Assembly (NCBI GenBank): GCA_032622095.1
Contig: CP136066.1
Span: 115,651,319 to 115,715,318, forward strand
Origin: Siphonodentalium dalli
Taxonomy: Eukaryota > Mollusca > Scaphopoda > Gadilida > Siphonodentaliidae
Reading direction: 5' to 3'
DNA length: 64,000 nucleotides
This document shows, in pieces, positions 45,076 to 55,773 of the stretch. The translations under genes and the position numbers were made by a program. Below the pieces are notes generated by a model. The model did not search any database. It was not told the origin of the DNA and was given only the letters and a program-made list of their open reading frames with translations. Each line of letters starts with the position of its first letter. The stretch's first letter is position 1.

Positions 45076-45269
45076 GATCAATGAGTCCAATTATTATAAA
45101 TAATACATTGCAGGCATCGGTGGATACCCGATTGCCACATTTAGTGATCACGTGATAAACTGATAAAATGTCCAAGTGACGTACTATATGTATGCATTCT
45201 GATCCGCTGTCGTTATTCATTCCATAACGTAATGCCTCAGGCCAGTCGAAAATTGGTTGCTCGTCATCT

Positions 45270-45645
45270 TCATTATATTGAAATTTTGGAAGTTTTGGAA
45301 ATTTTGGAAGTTTTTGAAATTTTTGAAATTTTGGAAGTTTTGGAAATTTTTGGAGTTTTGGAAATTTTGGAAGTTTTGGAAATTTTGGAAATTTTGGAAG
45401 TTTTGGAAATTTTGGAAATTTTTGGAGTTTTGGAAATTTTGTAAGTTTTGGAAATTTTGGAAATTTTGGAAGTTTTTGAAATTTTGGAAGTTTTGGAAAT
45501 TCTGGAAATTTTGGAAGTTTTTGAAATTTTGGAAGTTTTGGAAATTCTGGAAATTTTGGAAGTTTTTGAAATTTTTGAAATATTTGAAAGTTTTTGAAAT
45601 TTTGGAAGTTTTTGAAGTTTTGGGTTTTGAAATTGTTTTTTGGGA
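45270..45645. repeat. Minisatellite GGAAATTTTGGAAGTTTT, open on both strands
   Basis: About 30 units of 12 bp in 18- or 30-bp combinations. The + frame reads Phe-Trp-Lys repeats and the minus frame Asn-Phe-Gln repeats, each for over 100 codons, because the unit contains no stop in those frames. I regard these as by-products, not proteins. Confidence 0.9.
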
Positions 45646-45781
45646 ATATTTTAGTACAAACAATTTTACCCCCATAAAATCTATTTTTAGATGTGGACCT
45701 AACGAGACCCCCATACTACTAAAAGGGCCTCCCATAATTATATCTCGTTCTCTAAATCGGCATATGCAAACTTGTATAATT

Positions 45782-45907
45782 AGGAGATAAACATACCCTG
45801 TTGAGTTGTACATTCTGGGATTCGAGTACCCGGTATGAAAACAGTTCACAAACTGTTTTCATGCTCGAATCCCAGAATGTACAACGAAACAGGGTATGTT
45901 TATCTCC
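45782..45907. repeat. Near-perfect 126-bp palindrome
   Basis: Arms start GGAGATAAACATACCCTGTT and end with the complement TTTATCTCC. They meet at GAAAACAGTT-CAC-AAACTGTTTTC. A few single-base insertions occur in one arm. Confidence 0.9.
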
Positions 45908-47207: not shown

Positions 47208-47718
47208 ATGTATTTAAACATTGAACTTGATTAAAGTACAATAAATCAATGAATATATAGTACCTCTACTATTTAGAAGAACTTACAGTTGGGCAACTTC
47301 AGATTTTGTTATTATGTAAACAATTCTCTCATTGGCTAATAGTAATACCACTCACAGTGATACATGTATATCACTAAAACGAACAATTGGATTTTTCGTT
47401 AGAAACAAATGCATTTATCTCCCCACAATTGACATGTGACAATTAAGTTAATTGTTCTTAATGCGCTCGTTGGGTCATATCAACTCTACCTGGTCTGAGT
47501 TGTACATAAATCGTGATTTTCCATCCAAATATCAGCATAAATTCACATTTATGGAATTGTTGAAAATCATTTTTATGACGCACAGGAAGTGTCTCTATTC
47601 AGTTCCTTATTACAATTACTTATTTAAAATTTGCAGCACAAGTTATCTCCCATTTCCCCTCTTGGGATGCGGAGCTAACCGGGAGCTTGGAATATAAAAT
47701 TTTCTTTCACATCTCAAG

Positions 47719-47722
47719 GTAT
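47719..47722. repeat. Target-site duplication GTAT, left
   Basis: It matches GTAT at 53179-53182 directly outside the 3' LTR. Four bases is typical of Ty3/Gypsy-type integration. Confidence 0.8.
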
Positions 47723-47926
47723 TGTAGTAGATTTGGGTAATTCCGGACATAGTGCGCATGCGCGGGAAATAGACAGAGATAATACCACCACGACGACCTA
47801 AGATCACAACGACCTGCTTGCATCGATAATCCATCTGCATCAGCCGGCCTGTGATAACCACCGACGTGATATCTCGACCACGACTTGCGGGGACGTCTGC
47901 ACCTTATAGGGTGTAAGTTTACTTCA
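47723..47926 (+). repeat. 5' LTR (204 bp) with NRF-1 and E2F-like sites
   Basis: TG...CA ends. TGCGCATGCGC (47753-47763) is a full NRF-1 consensus palindrome, and GCGCGGGAAAT next to it fits an E2F site. The 3' LTR has the same sites. No clear TATA box is seen. Confidence 0.92.
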
Positions 47927-47927
47927 C

Positions 47928-47944
47928 TGGCGTCGTCGCAAAAC
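47928..47944 (+). promoter_or_regulatory. Primer-binding-site-like sequence
   Basis: TGGCGTCGTCGCAAAAC starts one base after the 5' LTR. TGG at this place pairs with the CCA end of a tRNA. The tRNA is not identified. Confidence 0.5.
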
Positions 47945-48419
47945 AGACTTTTGGAGGACTTTTCTCCGACAACTTTTGTGAAAGTTGTGACGAGGGCTAT
48001 TTTTAGCGCGAGGCTGTTTACAGCTGTTTACAGAGGCTGCAAAATCCGTTTTCGGACCAAACTCCGTTTATATATACGTATATATACAGAGGGGACGAGA
48101 AGAAGTGCTTTAAGGACAGGATTTTGGACCCAGAGGAAGATTCACCTAATTTCTGAGCACTTGTGAACATTTTATAGTCTGCAATCACCTCGAGGTGACC
48201 ATTTCCACCGACGGGCACAGAAGAGCTCGAAAGGTCACCGGGTCAAACCGGAAGTTGTAACATCAGCTGTCAACAATAACATTGCAGCGTAGGACAGTAC
48301 AGAGAATCAGTACATTCATTGGACTTCACCTGAAGTTCAGCGTAAATAAAACACGCTCAAAACGAATAGTCAACATCTGTTTCTGTCTGTCTTCGGTGAA
48401 GATATAAATCAGTAAAGGG

Positions 48420-48960
48420 AAGTTTCATTTTCATAACAATCAACATTAAAGTGACATTCCACATTTCACCTGCTCTAACAACTGATTTCCTTCTGCGAAG
48501 GAAATTGCAGTCATTGTCAATTCATTAAAGTCACACTTCAAGTTGACACACGTCAATTCATCCACAATTCATTAAAGTGAGACTTCATGTTCATATACAT
48601 AATTTCATAACAAGTCATATTTCACTTTCACATACATCATTTACATTTCATTAAAGTGACACTTCACATACATATTCACATTTCCTTAAAGTCATATTTC
48701 ACATGTCAGTTCATTCATATTTCATTAAAGCCATATTTCACGTTCACACACGTCATTTACATTTCATTAAGGGACACCTCAATTTCATATACATCATATT
48801 CATATTTCATTAAAGTCATATTTCACATTCACACGTCTGTTCATTCATATTTCATTAAAGTCATACTTCATGTTCACACAGGTCATTTACATTTCATTAA
48901 AGTGACACTTCACTTTCACATACATCATATTCATATTTCATTAAACTCAATTTCACGTTT
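48420..48960 (+). repeat. Leader tandem repeats of the LTR element
   Basis: About eight irregular units share TTCATTAAAGT(C/G)A and A(T/C)TTCAC(A/G)TTCACA with TCATTTACA. Unit length is near 60-65 bp with internal half-units. The segment is free of long frames except a translation of the repeat (48656-49102). Confidence 0.8.
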
Positions 48961-49200
48961 CCTTTCGCGAAGGAAATTAGTCATTGTCCAGAAATTAAAG
49001 GGACACCTCCCACTCAACGCTTTTATTAAAGCGACACCAGCTCCCGACCGAGATTTTCTTCAGCGAGGAAATTCAGACACATTGTTCCCGTTCCTTCAGT
49101 GAAGGAGAATCCTGACCACTTCAAAGAAGTGATCAGTATTGGCCCCGTTAACTGCTTTAACAAAGGCATTAGCTAAATCACCCTAAATATTGCATCTTTT
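48486..49200 (+). repeat. CTTC...GAAG hairpins in the leader
   Basis: TTTCCTTC-TGC-GAAGGAAA (48486-48504) and TTTCCTTTCGCGAAGGAAA (48958-48976) are near-perfect short stem-loops. Weaker ones follow at 49053, 49089 and 49117. The same stem type recurs after the ORFs (52074-52760). Confidence 0.7.
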
Positions 49201-49251
49201 GTGAAGGAGCAATTCAACGTTATACTTTCCGGTACATTTCAACACGCAACC

Positions 49252-50796
49252 ATGTACCCGAGGAAAGTTAAAATTAATCAATGCTCGTACAAGACATTGC
49301 TGGACATCCCGGGGGTAGGAAAGAAGACTGCTTCATTACTTGTCTGGTATAGGCACACACTGGGGAATATTACACCAGAGAACATTCGATGCGTGCCAGG
49401 CCTCAGAATTACAGAACAACTGCGAGATGCGGTTGACTTTGAACGCAGACAGGATATAGAGTGCGATGATCGGGCTATGTGTGAAGATACCCACAACATC
49501 ACTGCGCTTCTGGAGCCACCGGGTTTTAAAGTGGAATCGGAGGAGCCCGGGACCCCAGATGATTATGAAGACAGAATCTCCCGGGTCATAAATGGCCGAC
49601 ATAGCGCCCCAGATGGGAGACCAGGAATCAGACAGGACCCACCAATTAGTCCAATCGACTTAGGCTCACCAACTAAACGGAACACTGATCAGTCATCTGG
49701 TATGGATAGGAAGCTCCAAGACAGTTTAGACCGACTGGAAAGATTGGTATTGGAACAGACCACCAACCAGAGGAAACCCCGTGATCGAGCGCCAGCCGAT
49801 GACCCACATGCAGCAAGGCCTCAAGACAACCGGGCACCAAAACATCTAATATTTGATGGCACCGGCAGCTGGCCAACATTCAAAATGAAATTCGAGCTAC
49901 ATGCCGACGCCCAGCGATGGAGGTCATCCGAGACGGTGAAGAACCTGGTTTGGTTTCTGGAGGGGGCAGCCGGTGAAGTATACCGGACCCTACTGGCACA
50001 GGACCCGGCCATTGATAAAATGGACCTTATGCGCAAGTTGGAGCGTAGCTTTGGATCCCAGGAGCTCCTGCAAAGTTCTCAACTTAGGTTTCAGCAAGCA
50101 TCTCAACAACCAGACGAGTCCAACAGCGAATGGGCTGATCGAATACTTGCGTTGGGATTATCTGCCTATGGGACCCTGCCAAGGGATTATATGGACAGCC
50201 AAGTGCGCCTCCAGTTTTGCTTGGGGCTCCAGGACAAGGCAGCAGGCCAGGCGGCTGCACTAGGGAAGCCAGAGACACTGGAAGAGGCCATCGACAGCGT
50301 CCAGTGGTACCATTATGCGACCAAGGCTGTACACCAACAACGGCAGAGGGACACCAGTGGTGACCGCAGACAAACCCCCAGGGGAGATCACAGGCCATTA
50401 CGAGTTCTAATGATGCACAGCGATCATCAACGAGCGTCGACTGCCAGTGGATCTCCCATGCCAACCGAGAAGCTCTATGGGGACCACCGAATGGGCAGAC
50501 GAGAAGAGGAAATGGAATCGATGTCCCAGAAAATTAGAAACATGGAAAAACTGGAGGACCGGGTCAAACTGACAGTCGACTCACGACTAAGGAAATTCGA
50601 AGCAACAATGGACTCGAGATTCAGGGATCTCAAAGAAGATAACAATCAGGCACTCAGAAATATCGAAGAACACAACAACAAAGCGCGGACCGACTTCAAG
50701 GAACGTCTGGAGGCCATGATGGATCGATGGATGTCAAAGGTTGGGGCACTCCCAGATTTAAACAAACGAGGGTCACACCCAGAGGCCGAGGGGTGA
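49252..50796 (+). CDS. gag: Gag-like protein with N-terminal HhH motif, 514 aa
   Basis: I chose the ATG at 49252 (context CAACCATGT); the frame is open a little farther upstream but without ATG. Residues about 8-52 form a helix-hairpin-helix region (LLDIPGVGKKTASLLVW, then VPGLRI), a DNA-binding fold unusual in Gag. Residues about 195-330 match the retrotransposon Gag/capsid pattern: W-x2-F-x3-F, then LVWFLEGAAGEVYRTLL, a SFG segment and a leucine/glutamine-rich second half. Residues about 415-500 are heptad-rich, a likely coiled coil. No CCHC zinc knuckle is present. GC is higher than in the surroundings, consistent with a recent arrival. The frame is intact, so the protein could still form particles. 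Confidence 0.85.
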   Translation: MYPRKVKINQCSYKTLLDIPGVGKKTASLLVWYRHTLGNITPENIRCVPGLRITEQLRDAVDFERRQDIECDDRAMCEDTHNITALLEPPGFKVESEEPGTPDDYEDRISRVINGRHSAPDGRPGIRQDPPISPIDLGSPTKRNTDQSSGMDRKLQDSLDRLERLVLEQTTNQRKPRDRAPADDPHAARPQDNRAPKHLIFDGTGSWPTFKMKFELHADAQRWRSSETVKNLVWFLEGAAGEVYRTLLAQDPAIDKMDLMRKLERSFGSQELLQSSQLRFQQASQQPDESNSEWADRILALGLSAYGTLPRDYMDSQVRLQFCLGLQDKAAGQAAALGKPETLEEAIDSVQWYHYATKAVHQQRQRDTSGDRRQTPRGDHRPLRVLMMHSDHQRASTASGSPMPTEKLYGDHRMGRREEEMESMSQKIRNMEKLEDRVKLTVDSRLRKFEATMDSRFRDLKEDNNQALRNIEEHNNKARTDFKERLEAMMDRWMSKVGALPDLNKRGSHPEAEG

Positions 50797-52061
50797 CCCA
50801 AGAAGATCGAGGCCAATTGAACGGGACGGAGGAAGATGGGTTTCAAGGCAGCCTTGGCCAAGGGCCCAGAAGTGACCTTCCGGGAAGGTCAGAACAGAGA
50901 TGGATGACAGAACCAAAGCAGTCACTTTCAGGGGGTGACCAGGACACACACCTCGCGGAGAGGCATGGTGCTTCCACATCTTTTCTCAGAAGACAAAGGT
51001 CGCCTCATAACATAGACGAGGGGCAGGAATACTCACCACCAAGACCACTTTGTCACAAAGAGACTCCATTTAAATCAGGTCTTCCAGGAAGACCAATCAG
51101 GGGGAAGTCTGCAAATAAGCGGATCACTCCAAGTCAGGAATTGAAGCAGAGCTCCAGTGGTGACCTTATAGTCCAACATATCAGCTCGCCATCCAGTGAG
51201 GGCGATATAGGTGATACATGCTTCAAGGAGTTCATCAGGCCATGTAGAACCCCAATAAAAACTCTGGCATATTTAGAACGGAGACATAGACAGCTACTTG
51301 GCAATGACATTTCAATGCCCACATGTGACATCCTAAATCAATTGGTGGGAGTCAAATGTGTATATTTAGAGGAGAGCACAACCGAGGGCCACAGTGGATC
51401 CATCACAGATGGAACCATGAGTCCTACCTTCGTTGAACAGAATCTATTTGACAGTAACCAGTCATGCCACACAGAAACTAGCTCAAATGAGAAACGAGGA
51501 CAGATTACTGGTAGTCCAGAAAGTACCTCTATCTCTCTATCTGGTGAAAACTCACGAGAATTATACACATGGGACGAAATTCTGTCTCTCCCAGTGGACC
51601 AAGTGGAACACTTGGCTAAGCTAGGACACCCCAGTGATACAGAAACTTCCAAAGATGAAATGACCATAAATGACCTTGGTGAAAATTCCATAATTCAATA
51701 CAGCACGGGAATAATAGTCAAAGAAACTGAATCCGACGAAACTGAAAGTAACGACAGTACTCCTGCCACATTCAGCATCTCCTCTGAAAACTTGTTATGC
51801 CAACATTGCACACCGGCCTCATTAACAATCGTCGCTTCGTCTAACACCAGTGGTATAGAAGAACACTACAGTGAATACAGAACTAGCACTCCAATAGATA
51901 CATGTAGTTGTGTATATTTTCCAGTGGAGGAGCAGGACCAAGGATTGATCATGAAAGCAAATGTGAACCCCGATAAGCTGTCCTCAGAAAGATGCAAAAC
52001 ACATACTAGTAGGGGACAATCTAGCAAATGGCCCTGGGATCCTGGAGGAGTGCTGCCATAA
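50727..52061 (+). CDS. ORF2 in the -1 frame of gag, 444 aa from its first ATG; frameshift extension likely
   Basis: The frame overlaps the last 70 bp of gag and joins it at the TTTAAAC heptamer. Translation by -1 shift there would add 432 codons, for a fusion of about 936. The product is rich in Ser, Thr, Glu and Gly with several SSPSSEG/GGDQD-like acidic stretches. A few ordered parts appear (LAYLERRHRQLLGNDI; WDEILSLPVDQVEHLAKLG). I searched by eye for D-S/T-G, YxDD, RNase H and integrase HHCC/DDE motifs and found none. It occupies the place of pro-pol but is not pol. It could be a fast-evolving structural or accessory domain. Its first ATG has no special context, so frameshift expression is more likely than separate initiation. 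Confidence 0.7.
   Translation: MDVKGWGTPRFKQTRVTPRGRGVTQEDRGQLNGTEEDGFQGSLGQGPRSDLPGRSEQRWMTEPKQSLSGGDQDTHLAERHGASTSFLRRQRSPHNIDEGQEYSPPRPLCHKETPFKSGLPGRPIRGKSANKRITPSQELKQSSSGDLIVQHISSPSSEGDIGDTCFKEFIRPCRTPIKTLAYLERRHRQLLGNDISMPTCDILNQLVGVKCVYLEESTTEGHSGSITDGTMSPTFVEQNLFDSNQSCHTETSSNEKRGQITGSPESTSISLSGENSRELYTWDEILSLPVDQVEHLAKLGHPSDTETSKDEMTINDLGENSIIQYSTGIIVKETESDETESNDSTPATFSISSENLLCQHCTPASLTIVASSNTSGIEEHYSEYRTSTPIDTCSCVYFPVEEQDQGLIMKANVNPDKLSSERCKTHTSRGQSSKWPWDPGGVLP
50757..50799 (+). promoter_or_regulatory. -1 ribosomal frameshift signal: TTTAAAC, 6-nt spacer, stem-loop
   Basis: TTTAAAC (50757-50763) is in the required phase, read in gag as T-TTA-AAC (Leu-Asn). A 6-base spacer (AAACGA) follows. 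A stem GGGTCAC (50770-50776) pairs with GTGACCC (50793-50799); after a bulged A an inner CCC/GGG extends it, leaving a 9-base loop. The gag stop TGA (50794-50796) lies within the 3' arm. Heptamer, spacing and stem match known X-XXY-YYZ signals, where UUUAAAC is one of the most efficient. Activity is not tested. Confidence 0.8.
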
Positions 52062-52073
52062 GCGATACTATAA

Positions 52074-52760
52074 TTTCCTTCACAGAAGGGAAGTGCTACT
52101 ATGGTACCAGTACAACAGTAAAAGGGCTTTCAAGGAAGGCAGTACCAGAGTTAGCATAGTCAAAGTGTCCAGTTAATAACACATACTGGTCAGCAGTGAC
52201 TCAAATTTCCTTCAACGAAGGAATCGGTCAAAAATTGGTGGAAGTCAATATCGCATTCCACGATACCATCAGTTTCTGGTATAATTCCCTCCATCGAAGG
52301 GAAGTGCTACAATGATATGACCGTAAATTTAATGGCATGCACAGCCATGGCCTTCTGGGAAGGTGTTGCAGTAGCGTATTGGCGCAGCCAGTCTGCCCAG
52401 TTAATAACATGTACCATTAGTGATGGCATAAATTTAATGACACGCACAGCCATTGCCTTCTGGGAAGGTGTCGTGGTAGCGTACTGGCACAATGACAGTA
52501 AACAGCAGACATAACCATAGTCTTCCAGGAAGGCAATACGGTCCAACCACTAGGTCCAGTCAACATATATCATCAGTGATGGTACATGTATAAGGAATAA
52601 ATTGGTCCAAGCACTGTCTGATGACTTGATCTGGAAACCTTCATGGACTGAAAAGTACTAGGTGTGCATCCCTGTAAGGAAGTGGCTACCAGCATCCTGC
52701 TTATCGTTATAGAAGAATTAGCCTCTGGCACTGATAGCAGTTCCCTTCATCGAAAGGATA
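52074..52760 (+). repeat. CTTC...GAAG hairpins in the 3' region
   Basis: Near-regular stems: TTCCTTCAACGAAGGAA (52206-52222), TTCCCTCCATCGAAGGGAA (52285-52303), TTTCCTTCACAGAAGGGAA (about 52074), then GCCTTCTGGGAAGGT twice (about 52350 and 52459), TCTTCCAGGAAGGC (about 52520) and TTCCCTTCATCGAAAGG (about 52741). Several are followed by AGTGCTAC or GT(A/G)GCGTA(T/C)TGGC. Confidence 0.7.
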
Positions 52761-52817
52761 CACAGTAATGGGCGCAGCCACACTTGATAAAAACATAGAA
52801 AAGGGAGACGAGAACCA

Positions 52818-52897
52818 ATAGAGGATGGCCTTCTAGAGAATACCTTGATGTTTCATAATAGAGGATGGCCTTCTAGAGAATACCTTGATGTTTCATA
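52818..52897 (+). repeat. 40-bp perfect tandem duplication
   Basis: ATAGAGGATGGCCTTCTAGA ... TTTCATA occurs twice head to tail. It is probably a recent replication or reverse-transcription slip, just before the 3' LTR. Confidence 0.9.
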
Positions 52898-52942
52898 CAG
52901 GGAACACCCCCCATTTATTTTTGGATGCCTGGATTCCACTGT

Positions 52943-52974
52943 GGAAGGAAACGGAAAGAGAAAGTGGGGAGGAG
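52943..52974 (+). promoter_or_regulatory. Polypurine tract before the 3' LTR
   Basis: GGAAGGAAACGGAAAGAGAA and GTGGGGAGGAG run directly into the 3' LTR with two pyrimidine breaks (C at 52952, T at 52965). This is the expected plus-strand primer. Confidence 0.75.
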
Positions 52975-53178
52975 TGTAGTAGATTTGGGTAATTCCGGAC
53001 ATAGTGCGCATGCGCGGGAAATAGACAGAGATAATACCACCACGACGACCTAAGATCACAACGACCTGCTTGCATCGATAATCCATCTGCATCAGCCGGC
53101 CTGTGATAACCACCGACGTGATATTTCGATCACGACTTGCGGGGACGTCTGCACCTTATAGGGTGTAAGTTTACTTCA
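52975..53178 (+). repeat. 3' LTR (204 bp)
   Basis: It is identical to 47723-47926 except for two C-to-T differences near 53124 and 53130. It is followed by GTAT. Confidence 0.92.
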
Positions 53179-53182
53179 GTAT

Positions 53183-53737
53183 CAACCACCCCTAGGGTCC
53201 TACTTGAAAATATATAGATATATTAGTTTGAGATGGTCATTTCTACATTTATCTAGTAATGAGAATGAGTTAAAATGTGCACTTAGTAGTGTACAGCAGA
53301 GCCAGTTTTACCACACCCGACGTCTGTTTACTCACATCCGTAATCCCTTTTATTCGGATTAACACCGGGTGCGAATAAGTAAAATGGTATTTATAGAATG
53401 GATATGTTTTTCCAAAATCGTAAAGAATTCCACCGAGTTTGCACCTGAAGGAATATTCGAGTAACTAACAGCTATTTTCTCGTAAGTGGGTAAAGATACT
53501 AACAATCTGAATACACCATCGTTTCAAGAAAAAAATATGGAATATTATGATATAAACTCAGAATTCGCGAATGTTTGTGTGGCATAAAAATTTGTACTCT
53601 GTAATTTCTTGCAAATCATCTGCCAATGAAAATGCAGTATACAAACTTTTTACTTTCCAAACTGTACTTTATATAACTATAATAACTAAATATAAAATAT
53701 TGATTTAATATTATTAAATAATATTTTATTCAACTAA
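53183..53737. other. Unique AT-rich sequence
   Basis: No feature is supported. It should continue the intron or intergenic sequence interrupted by the LTR element. Confidence 0.45.
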
Positions 53738-55773
53738 CAGTGATTCCTAGGGACTGTGGTGTATGTGGTGTTATTTCCAACTTTGATCACTTACTTTTTG
53801 AGTTATTAGCATTATTTGAATACAAAACTACTAAACAACGAACACAAACGAAAATAAGATTAGCCATACTGCAAAGGTGTTAACTAACTACGACTTACTC
53901 TGTCTCCTTGTTAATTGCACATCTGTGAGTTGTTTTTACTGCAAGGTGATTGTCAGTTTTGTCACTGATGGCAATAAAAACACGGGAAACATCAGAGGTC
54001 GGCGGTATGTATGAATTCATGTATGAATGTGATCCTAAGTACATACTATTGTTTCGCACATAGCCACACATACACATGGTTCTTTCTAAGTTTAATTTCG
54101 TCGTTCGATTTTCCACTTCTCCTCTATAGAAGATATTATGTTCGTTATTTTTATCAGTCGAAAAAGTTGCGCATCAAATTTGTTCAACTTCCATATTAAG
54201 ATTACTACAGGTAAGGTCAGTCCCGTTGTAGTTTAGACATCGAATTGCAGCGACATGAAGTTGAACAAAATTTATGTAGTTTGATCGGTTGTTGTGTTTT
54301 ATGATGGACATGACAGTTAGCCAGACTTGTGTCTGTTTTTCCTATTTCAATGCGGAAGCGCTGTTGTTTTAAACATTTTTAAACATTGTTATTTAAACAA
54401 GTGACAAACATTTTACAGTAAGACAGAATAATATAAATAATCGATTGATTGGAAAGGGGATTAAACAACAAGCCCAAGGGCTTTTATTAAGTTTGCTCCC
54501 CTTTTGTTTTGCGCCCGCTCTTCGTTAAGTGTATGTAACTTGATTGACTTGGGCATGCGTTAGAATTATGATAATCACACACATCGTCAAGGACTCTTAG
54601 GACAGACAACGGATCTACTTACACCTAACTATTTAATTAGACGGTTATGATGTCGACATGTTTTAGTCGATAATAGGGCCTACACTCGATATCCCCATTT
54701 GAGCCAAATAGACCAACTGAACGAAAATGGCACCATCCTTGATATTTCTGTGGCATATTAGTACTTATGCCACATTATTGCCTCGTTAACATTCTGATAT
54801 GTAAATATAAGAAATCAATTATTGTTTCGTTCATTTCCATGGTGTGTGAATGCTTGTGAACCTGGAAAATGTGAGCAGTGATTCTGCGCGTCACGCCATT
54901 TTCAGGCCTATATATTATGCATTCTTACCCATTAAATTGAAAGAGACAACCATTCGTTTCCCAAAATGGCAAAGAATAGTGACCACTCGCTCATATACCG
55001 GTACTCCAACAGATCCCCTCACGAACCGCGAGAGAAAATACAACATATTTCTTGATTAACTGCTGTCGAATTTAACCACATACTAGTAGGCCTACATAAA
55101 ATGGAGGAAAAATTCAGGCTAGAGAGTTCTATCTCCATGTGCACTCTGATCCGGAAGCGAGACGATGGTTTCGTAAGCAAAAGGGTTCTATCTCTAAACA
55201 CATTTTTGTCTTTTATTATAAAACTGGCGAGTTTCTAGAACTGAGACTTCGGATATAATAATATTTCAGTTAGCTTTAACATTTTAAAACATAACGACAC
55301 ACACTGAAAACGATTTATGTCTCGAAATTTCAACATAGATTTCCCAACAAAATGATAAATGTTGGATAGAACCATCTGATTCTCACACGACGATATATAA
55401 GCTCGATAAAAAGAACAACTCAAATGTTTTGTTAGATATGCATTAAAACGCCGACCTCTGATGTTTCCCGTGTTTTCCTGCCATCAGTGACAAAACTGAC
55501 AATCACCTTGCAGTAAAAACAACTCACAGATGTGCAAAGAGTAAGCCGTAGTTAATTAACACTTTTGCAATACGGCTAATCTTATGTTCGTTTGTGTTCG
55601 TTGTTTAGTAGCTTTGTATTCAAATAATGCTAATAACTAAAAAAATAAGTAATCAAAGTTGGAAATAACAACACATACACATAGAGTGGACCCACACGCA
55701 CCCACAAACCAAATTTCACCATTCTATTCCGCTTTTTTGGACCTGTGTTCGTTTATGTTCATTGTTTAGTAGG
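53738..55773. mobile_element. Element with long terminal inverted repeats, about 2 kb
   Basis: The left arm (53738-54003) and right arm (55449-55773) are inverted copies sharing ATCAGAGGTCGGCG, GTGATTGTCAGTTTTGTCACT and ACTAAACAACGAACACAAACG. The right arm has an extra module (TGGACCCACACGCACCCA). A solo module with both parts sits at 47071-47207. The interior (54004-55448) is unique with no transposase frame; two frames of 62-69 codons are not recognised. I could not fix a target duplication. Confidence 0.7.

Follow-up and report, generated by a model that had tools for sequence, protein, structure and literature searches.

The usual explanation for frameshifting in retroelements is that few Pol molecules are needed per Gag. 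The Pol order protease, reverse transcriptase (RT), RNase H and integrase (PR-RT-RNaseH-IN) is a mark of Ty3/Gypsy elements (Metaviridae), and elements with long terminal repeats (LTRs) and gag without pol domains are defined as TR-GAG. Among Gag-related host genes, PEG10 and Ma3 use frameshifting, according to PMC5009743 (PMC6238403 was a further source for this analysis). Here we analyze a 64,000-nucleotide stretch from the scaphopod Siphonodentalium dalli (assembly GCA_032622095.1, contig CP136066.1, positions 115,651,319 to 115,715,318), called the window throughout, in which positions 47723-53178 hold an LTR retrotransposon with a Gag open reading frame (ORF) and a second one, ORF2, in the -1 frame. 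This element very probably makes Gag plus a minor Gag-ORF2 fusion, using a -1 frameshift module kept from a Gypsy-like Gag-Pol lineage in what would be a pol-less, non-autonomous derivative. The majority of ribosomes would end at the TGA at 50794-50796 and yield a capsid-type Gag, and a minority would slip back one base on T-TTA-AAC, aided by a stem or perhaps a pseudoknot, to make a Gag-ORF2 protein of 936 residues from the ATG at 49252. As a minor C-terminal extension, the ORF2 part would then be carried into Gag particles in the way that Pol is in pol-bearing relatives. Enzymes would be supplied in trans by such relatives, a supply that we infer because the LTR, leader and Gag are similar to theirs.

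The frameshift module

The module and the frames that it joins are made up as follows (L-numbers, used below, label the genomic loci compared with the window element).

49252-50796, forward strand: Gag ORF, ATG to TGA, 514 amino acids
50757-50763, forward strand: slippery heptamer T-TTA-AAC, with TTA (50758-50760) and AAC (50761-50763) as Gag codons
50764-50769, forward strand: spacer AAACGA, 6 nt
50770-50780, forward strand: stem 5' arm GGGTCAC-(A)-CCC, with 50777 unpaired
50784-50787 and 50811-50814, forward strand: loop GGCC and its downstream partner GGCC, a candidate H-type pseudoknot
50790-50799, forward strand: stem 3' arm GGG-GTGACCC, which holds the Gag stop TGA (50794-50796)
50763-52061, forward strand: ORF2 as read after a -1 shift, 432 codons, in a frame open from 50643 and with an ATG at 50727

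As judged from its sequence, the module is confirmed and has the form of a -1 programmed frameshift signal, with an in-phase X XXY YYZ heptamer in a -1 overlap and a structure 5-9 nt downstream. The stem pairs GGGTCAC (50770-50776) with GTGACCC (50793-50799) and CCC (50778-50780) with GGG (50790-50792) around a 9-nt loop, and the 40 nt from 50770 have, at -18.4 kcal/mol, the lowest folding energy of all 40-nt segments in 49252-52020. An in-phase TTTAAAC would arise in the overlap by chance with a probability of 0.0025 when Gag codons are resampled and of 0.0075 when the codons of the overlap are shuffled. A pseudoknot is possible, the GGCC/GGCC pairing being kept in 90% of alignment cells with zero double changes. 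An earlier, sequence-only reading had proposed the phase of the heptamer, the 6-nt spacer, the 7-bp stem with three more pairs past a bulge and the 432 further codons in the -1 frame, all of which agree with the coordinates (50764-50799 for spacer and stem; 50643-52061 for the open frame). Its 70-bp overlap stands if counted from the ATG at 50727, the open overlap being 154 nt. Its placing of the Gag stop in the 3' arm of the stem holds in the window and is not general, as the stop lies inside the loop in L047, L048 and L050 and in the copies L022, L023 and L025.

Relatives, copies and selection

Relatives of the element were found by searching the assembly (2.23 Gb, nine contigs) with Gag. 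Two of them are 88.8% (L047, 48637-50729) and 87.6% (L048, 48732-50729) identical to the window. In L047 a 622-codon Gag frame is followed by a -1 frame of 1827 codons with aspartyl protease, RT, RNase H, integrase and PHD finger domains; the PR-RT-RNaseH-IN order was found only in this locus, which aligns with the window element in Gag, leader and LTR. In L048 pol is broken, its own LTRs are 99.0% identical mutually and ~78-80% identical to the window LTRs, and the sequence just 3' of its 5' LTR is nearly identical to the window's. Both loci carry TTTAAAC in the same phase, followed in L047 by a spacer of 6 nt and a stem. Between the window and L048 the heptamer differs at 0 of 7 positions, the stem at 4 of 20 and the unpaired positions at 14 of 34, and all ten pairs are kept through changes from A-U to G-C and from C-G to U-A; four random stem changes would leave all pairs intact with a probability of 0.0062. 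Ten of ten pairs are kept in L051 and nine of ten in L047. Over the 61-nt module, ungapped identity to L047, L048, L050 and L051 amounts to 69-72%; outside it, the 8 nt directly upstream reach 62-75% and the other stretches 20-39%. An alignment of 20 chosen sequences (the window, 13 copies and six relatives, leaving aside the capsid-less copies, near-identical copies, L053, L055-L057 and L059-L061) has two pairs changed on both sides, in six cells, a cell count reached by 0 of 500 shuffles. Since the pol-bearing relatives have this module at their gag-pol junction, with compensatory changes in the stem, it descends from the Gag-Pol frameshifting of a Gypsy-like lineage, which amends the sequence-only reading.

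We also picked 12 more distant loci from the Gag search. The frame after gag, read by eye as pol, is at -1 in ten of the 12, and TTTAAAC, TTTAAAT or GTTAAAC stands at the -1 junction in nine (GTTAAAC in L055-L057 and L061); L058 has a -1 overlap with no recognized heptamer, and L062 and L063 have no such overlap. As side observations on the relatives, the pol-frame end of L047 (38-1954, minus strand) carries a C-terminal PHD finger after the integrase core (PF00628, E 3.2e-9), and a further long ORF follows pol in L048 (3852-7901) and, downstream of L047, in L065 (3-3362, minus strand). Its domains are an RNA 2'-phosphotransferase (Tpt1/KptA) and a TatD DNase, a partial TatD also being present in L051, and a literature search returned no paper joining TatD, retrotransposon and 2-phosphotransferase.

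For the family itself, 62 match pieces were grouped by us into the window and 39 other places, 38 of which were compared (a short 3' fragment, C4:142374639, was left out). The heptamer is intact in all 24 of the other copies that retain the site. It is absent from the remaining 14, in six by internal deletion with flanks present on both sides (the capsid-less L030-L034, and L039) and in eight because the match starts only downstream of it (L027, L028, L035, L042-L046). Both frames are complete across the site in five loci (the window, L009, L012, L013 and L020), all with the heptamer and all ten stem pairs; no copy with both ORFs open and the module missing was seen. All ten pairs are in the 30-nt minimum free energy fold of 18 of 25 sequences, and a pair is broken in the capsid-less L029, L036 and L037 and in L018, L026 and L041, in which Gag is broken or incomplete. 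Across the 21 type-A rows (the window and 20 copies), the only variants within 50757-50799 common to at least three rows are at 50768, 50777 and 50788, i.e., in spacer, bulge and loop, and every stem change is found in a single copy. Two copies, L021 and L023, seemed to have Gag parts and ORF2 in one frame, which is explained by private indels.

Selection was estimated separately from shared variants (in at least two copies) and private ones (in a single copy), since the former would mostly have arisen while the family moved and the latter mostly after insertion. The flanking DNA of L040 and L024 beyond the homologous part was masked, and an unmasked count gave a similar result. The computation shows purifying selection on both frames. 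Shared variants in Gag (S 65, N 81, one stop) have an omega of 0.45 with p 2.4e-6, and those in ORF2 (S 47, N 67, no stop) an omega of 0.50 with p 2.5e-4, against 1.11 and 1.60 for Gag and 1.87 and 0.98 for ORF2 in shifted-frame controls. Private ORF2 variants gave an omega of 1.17 with five stops; this near-neutral value beside shared variants free of stops is as expected for selection before insertion. The ORF2 signal is located in its second half (omega 0.31, p 1.4e-4; first half 0.68, p 0.083). In Gag, shared variants also show purifying selection at the N-terminus, 49252-49530 (omega 0.43, p 0.003). Indels found in at least two copies are multiples of three in 3/3 cases in ORF2, 5/7 in Gag and 0/3 in the 3' flank, and the longest open run in 2000 shuffles was 303 codons, none reaching 430. 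The copies, the pol-bearing relatives and the selection on shared variants in both frames thus lend support to a working -1 module and to the proposal that Gag and a longer Gag-ORF2 fusion are made.

A second subfamily lacks the capsid region (L030-L034, L036, L037) and has the Gag N-terminus in the ORF2 frame. The two form one uninterrupted ORF of 769 codons in L033, 773 in L034 and 822 in L036 (from the ATG listed), and stops or shifts interrupt that frame in L030-L032 and L037. The capsid-less copies carry a 417-bp duplication inside ORF2, which keeps the frame in the intact ones; a duplication at the same place is also present in L027, L028 and the capsid-bearing L038. The slip site is lost in L030-L034, and L029, L036 and L037 keep TTTAAAC together with a common C-to-A change that breaks one stem pair. 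Since these copies hold a one-frame fusion with the site deleted or the stem weakened, they suggest that the fusion of Gag N-terminus and ORF2 is the product that matters and that the stem is relaxed once a shift is no longer required. Beside this subfamily stands L050 (445-1035), where a Gag without the capsid region lies ahead of a stretch resembling the L047 linker, and capsid loss may therefore have happened more than once.

Several results weigh against this picture. In a shuffle test of the isolated 74-nt fold the z score is -1.38, and 15 of 200 shuffles fold as well. Among close copies the 43-nt module is ordinary in its conservation (27% of segments are as low) and an invariant 7-mer occurs in 8.6%, the family alone holds no covariation of the stem, and RNAalifold on the family alignment favored another fold. 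In the wider alignment, the number of doubly changed pairs (two) was reached by 194 of 500 shuffles, and three of the ten pairs are broken in the distant L052 and L054. The heptamer is still present in capsid-less copies that have no need of it, and selection in the capsid-less set is non-significant (omega 0.67, p 0.16; ORF2 part 1.19, p 0.71). Codon-usage and period-3 signals in ORF2 are weak, and absent in its first half, and the p-values for shared variants are approximate because the counts ignore the tree of copies, their relatedness and gene conversion.

Origin of ORF2 and rival explanations

The sequence-only reading had described ORF2 as a frame other than pol, and a Pfam scan indeed found no pol domain in either the Gag ORF or ORF2. 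The idea that ORF2 is recognizable pol was rejected, as it has no Pfam family or PDB relative at E up to 1, and none of 3589 candidates was a protein relative at E up to 0.001. The description needs amending in one respect: ORF2 sits in the position that the pre-protease segment has in pol, without being recognizably derived from it. A reading to which we give slightly less than even chances, and which is compatible with frameshifting, is that ORF2 descends, with fast divergence, from the linker ahead of the protease in the pol frame, which would make the fusion a truncated Gag-Pol and not Gag joined to a new gene. Place and length agree, with 432 codons after the slip in the window and a protease match in L047 that starts ~432 residues after it, and the module-encoded residues are alike (QTRVTPRGRGVT in the window, RIRVALRGLEAT in L047; RVTPRGRGVT vs RVALRGLEAT). 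A single 30-residue motif also matches the L047 linker at 43% identity (pair E 0.006), for which hhalign gave an E of 0.0024 but a probability of 12%. The whole-length local score, in contrast, was matched by 59 of 500 shuffles, and the ORF2 family was not among the results when the genome was searched with the linker at E up to 1; with hhalign, these leave a full-length linker descendant unsupported. An origin of ORF2 from the linker by fast divergence is thus possible.

Three further explanations were weighed. If the module were a leftover of Gag-Pol, perhaps still working biochemically, Gag-ORF2 would have no role and the ORFs would be open because the copies are young. The LTRs are indeed identical at 202 of 204 positions, which implies a recent insertion, many copies are broken in one frame, ORF2 has no match in Pfam, PDB chains or the protein database searched, and its first half is not significantly constrained. 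We nevertheless consider such a relic improbable, as shared ORF2 variants (omega 0.50, zero stops) differ from private ones (1.17, five stops) and the shared indels of ORF2, and most of those of Gag, keep the frame while those of the 3' flank do not. That heptamer and stem are accidental in an overlap made by indels is hardly credible: some canonical in-phase heptamer would occur in such an overlap with a probability of 0.08 or 0.16 (the same two null models), but the gag-pol junction of the relatives has the same module with compensatory stem changes.

If ORF2 were produced on its own, whether from an mRNA of its own that is spliced or shorter or by a start at the ATG at 50727 (internal initiation or reinitiation), the heptamer would be incidental, and the alignment of this ATG with a Met in 10 of 11 rows (a gap in L034) speaks for such a route. 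However, the Gag ATG and the one at 50727 are separated by 33 others, and the start context at 50727 is GGATCGATGG, compared with GCAACCATGT at the Gag ATG, which we take to be the stronger of the two. The -1 frame is, moreover, already open 28 codons upstream of 50727, the capsid-less copies hold ORF2 in a fusion frame, and the module is common to Gag-Pol relatives, which together make separate production very unlikely.

Element architecture and comparison with known systems

The remaining features of the element are listed below.

47719-47722 and 53179-53182: target-site duplication GTAT, 5' and 3' copies, 4 bp
47723-47926, forward strand: 5' LTR, TG...CA, 204 bp, 202/204 identical to the 3' LTR
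47928-47939, forward strand: putative primer-binding site TGGCGTCGTCGC, by position only, a TGG-starting stretch after the 5' LTR
49270-49350, forward strand: helix-hairpin-helix (HhH) motif at the Gag N-terminus, PF00633, 22.2 bits (Pfam cut-off 24)
49918-50148, forward strand: capsid-like PNMA domain match, PF14893 E 1.8e-8; PNMA2 PDB chains E 7.6e-5 (sequence profile)
52961-52974, forward strand: polypurine-rich tract AAAGTGGGGAGGAG, adjoining the 3' LTR
52975-53178, forward strand: 3' LTR, 204 bp, 202/204 identical to the 5' LTR

At the place corresponding to the putative primer-binding site, the pol-bearing L048 has TGGCGCCGTCGC. Gag likely starts at the ATG at 49252, a GTG at 49201 being an unlikely eukaryotic start. 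Its HhH region has weak PDB profile matches to EEPD1 (E 0.0065) and ComE protein 1 (E 0.35), and it also aligns in P0001, the single distant Gag relative found (30% identity). A profile search using alignment A1 returned no match, no IMG/VR loci matched Gag or ORF2, and an Rfam scan of 47500-53500 gave nothing at E up to 1. The window Gag has no C..C motif, unlike the L047 Gag with its CCHC knuckle. For a Gag without a zinc knuckle, it is of note that mini-hairpins of the form CTTC-N3/4-GAAG occur 12 times in 47723-53178 and once in the remaining 58.5 kb of the window (shuffled sequence: mean 0.18, maximum 3). There are seven in L047, ten in L048, six in L050 and one in L051, while L049 and the 12 more distant loci have none. 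These hairpins may be an RNA packaging or protein-binding signal. The 5' leader has degenerate tandem TTCATTAAAGTCATATTTCAC-like repeats at 48510-48960, present in L047 and L048 too. Around the element, a minisatellite with a 9-bp period and several open frames lies at 45209-45790, and long inverted repeats, 92-97% complementary, at 53759-53979 and 55473-55680, which look like a separate foldback or MITE-type insertion.

The ordinary part of this locus is a textbook retroelement slip site; the unusual part is its survival with a selected ORF2 and no recognizable Pol. The element resembles animal Ty3/Gypsy (Metaviridae) Gag-Pol frameshifting in its TTTAAAC-type heptamer, 6-nt spacer, stem and -1 relation, and differs in that its downstream frame has no pol domain. 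The slip sequences U_UUA_AAC and G_UUA_AAC of coronaviruses and arteriviruses, as given in PMC5009743, are the same and so is the mechanism, although the elements are unrelated. With TR-GAG and other gag-only plant elements it shares LTRs and gag without pol, and it falls within the gag-only definition; its second conserved ORF, apparently reached by frameshifting, goes beyond that definition, and its PNMA-like Gag is a further difference. No paper on this combination was found in open-access literature searched by titles and abstract starts, a search that does not establish its absence from print.

The switch would have outlived Pol, with ORF2 selected in the shifted frame although no enzyme is recognizable in it. 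We tentatively suggest, as a minority view among our own expectations, a satellite-like family that keeps a Gag-Pol switch under selection so that ORF2, a satellite-specific protein, enters, at a Pol-like dose, particles common with its pol-bearing relatives, a sister line having later lost both the capsid and the switch and joined the Gag N-terminus directly to ORF2. If true, recoding would here serve the dosage of a non-enzymatic parasite protein. The recoded and the hard-wired fusion offer a natural comparison inside one genome. The likeness to PEG10 and PNMA3/PNMA5 lies in a Gag-like capsid protein with a -1 frameshift extension, the window Gag matching PNMA by sequence. These are immobile domesticated host genes, and the PEG10 extension keeps a protease, whereas the window element is multicopy, with LTRs and a target-site duplication. 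The comparison suggests how frameshift extensions of the PEG10/PNMA type could begin in mobile elements before domestication.

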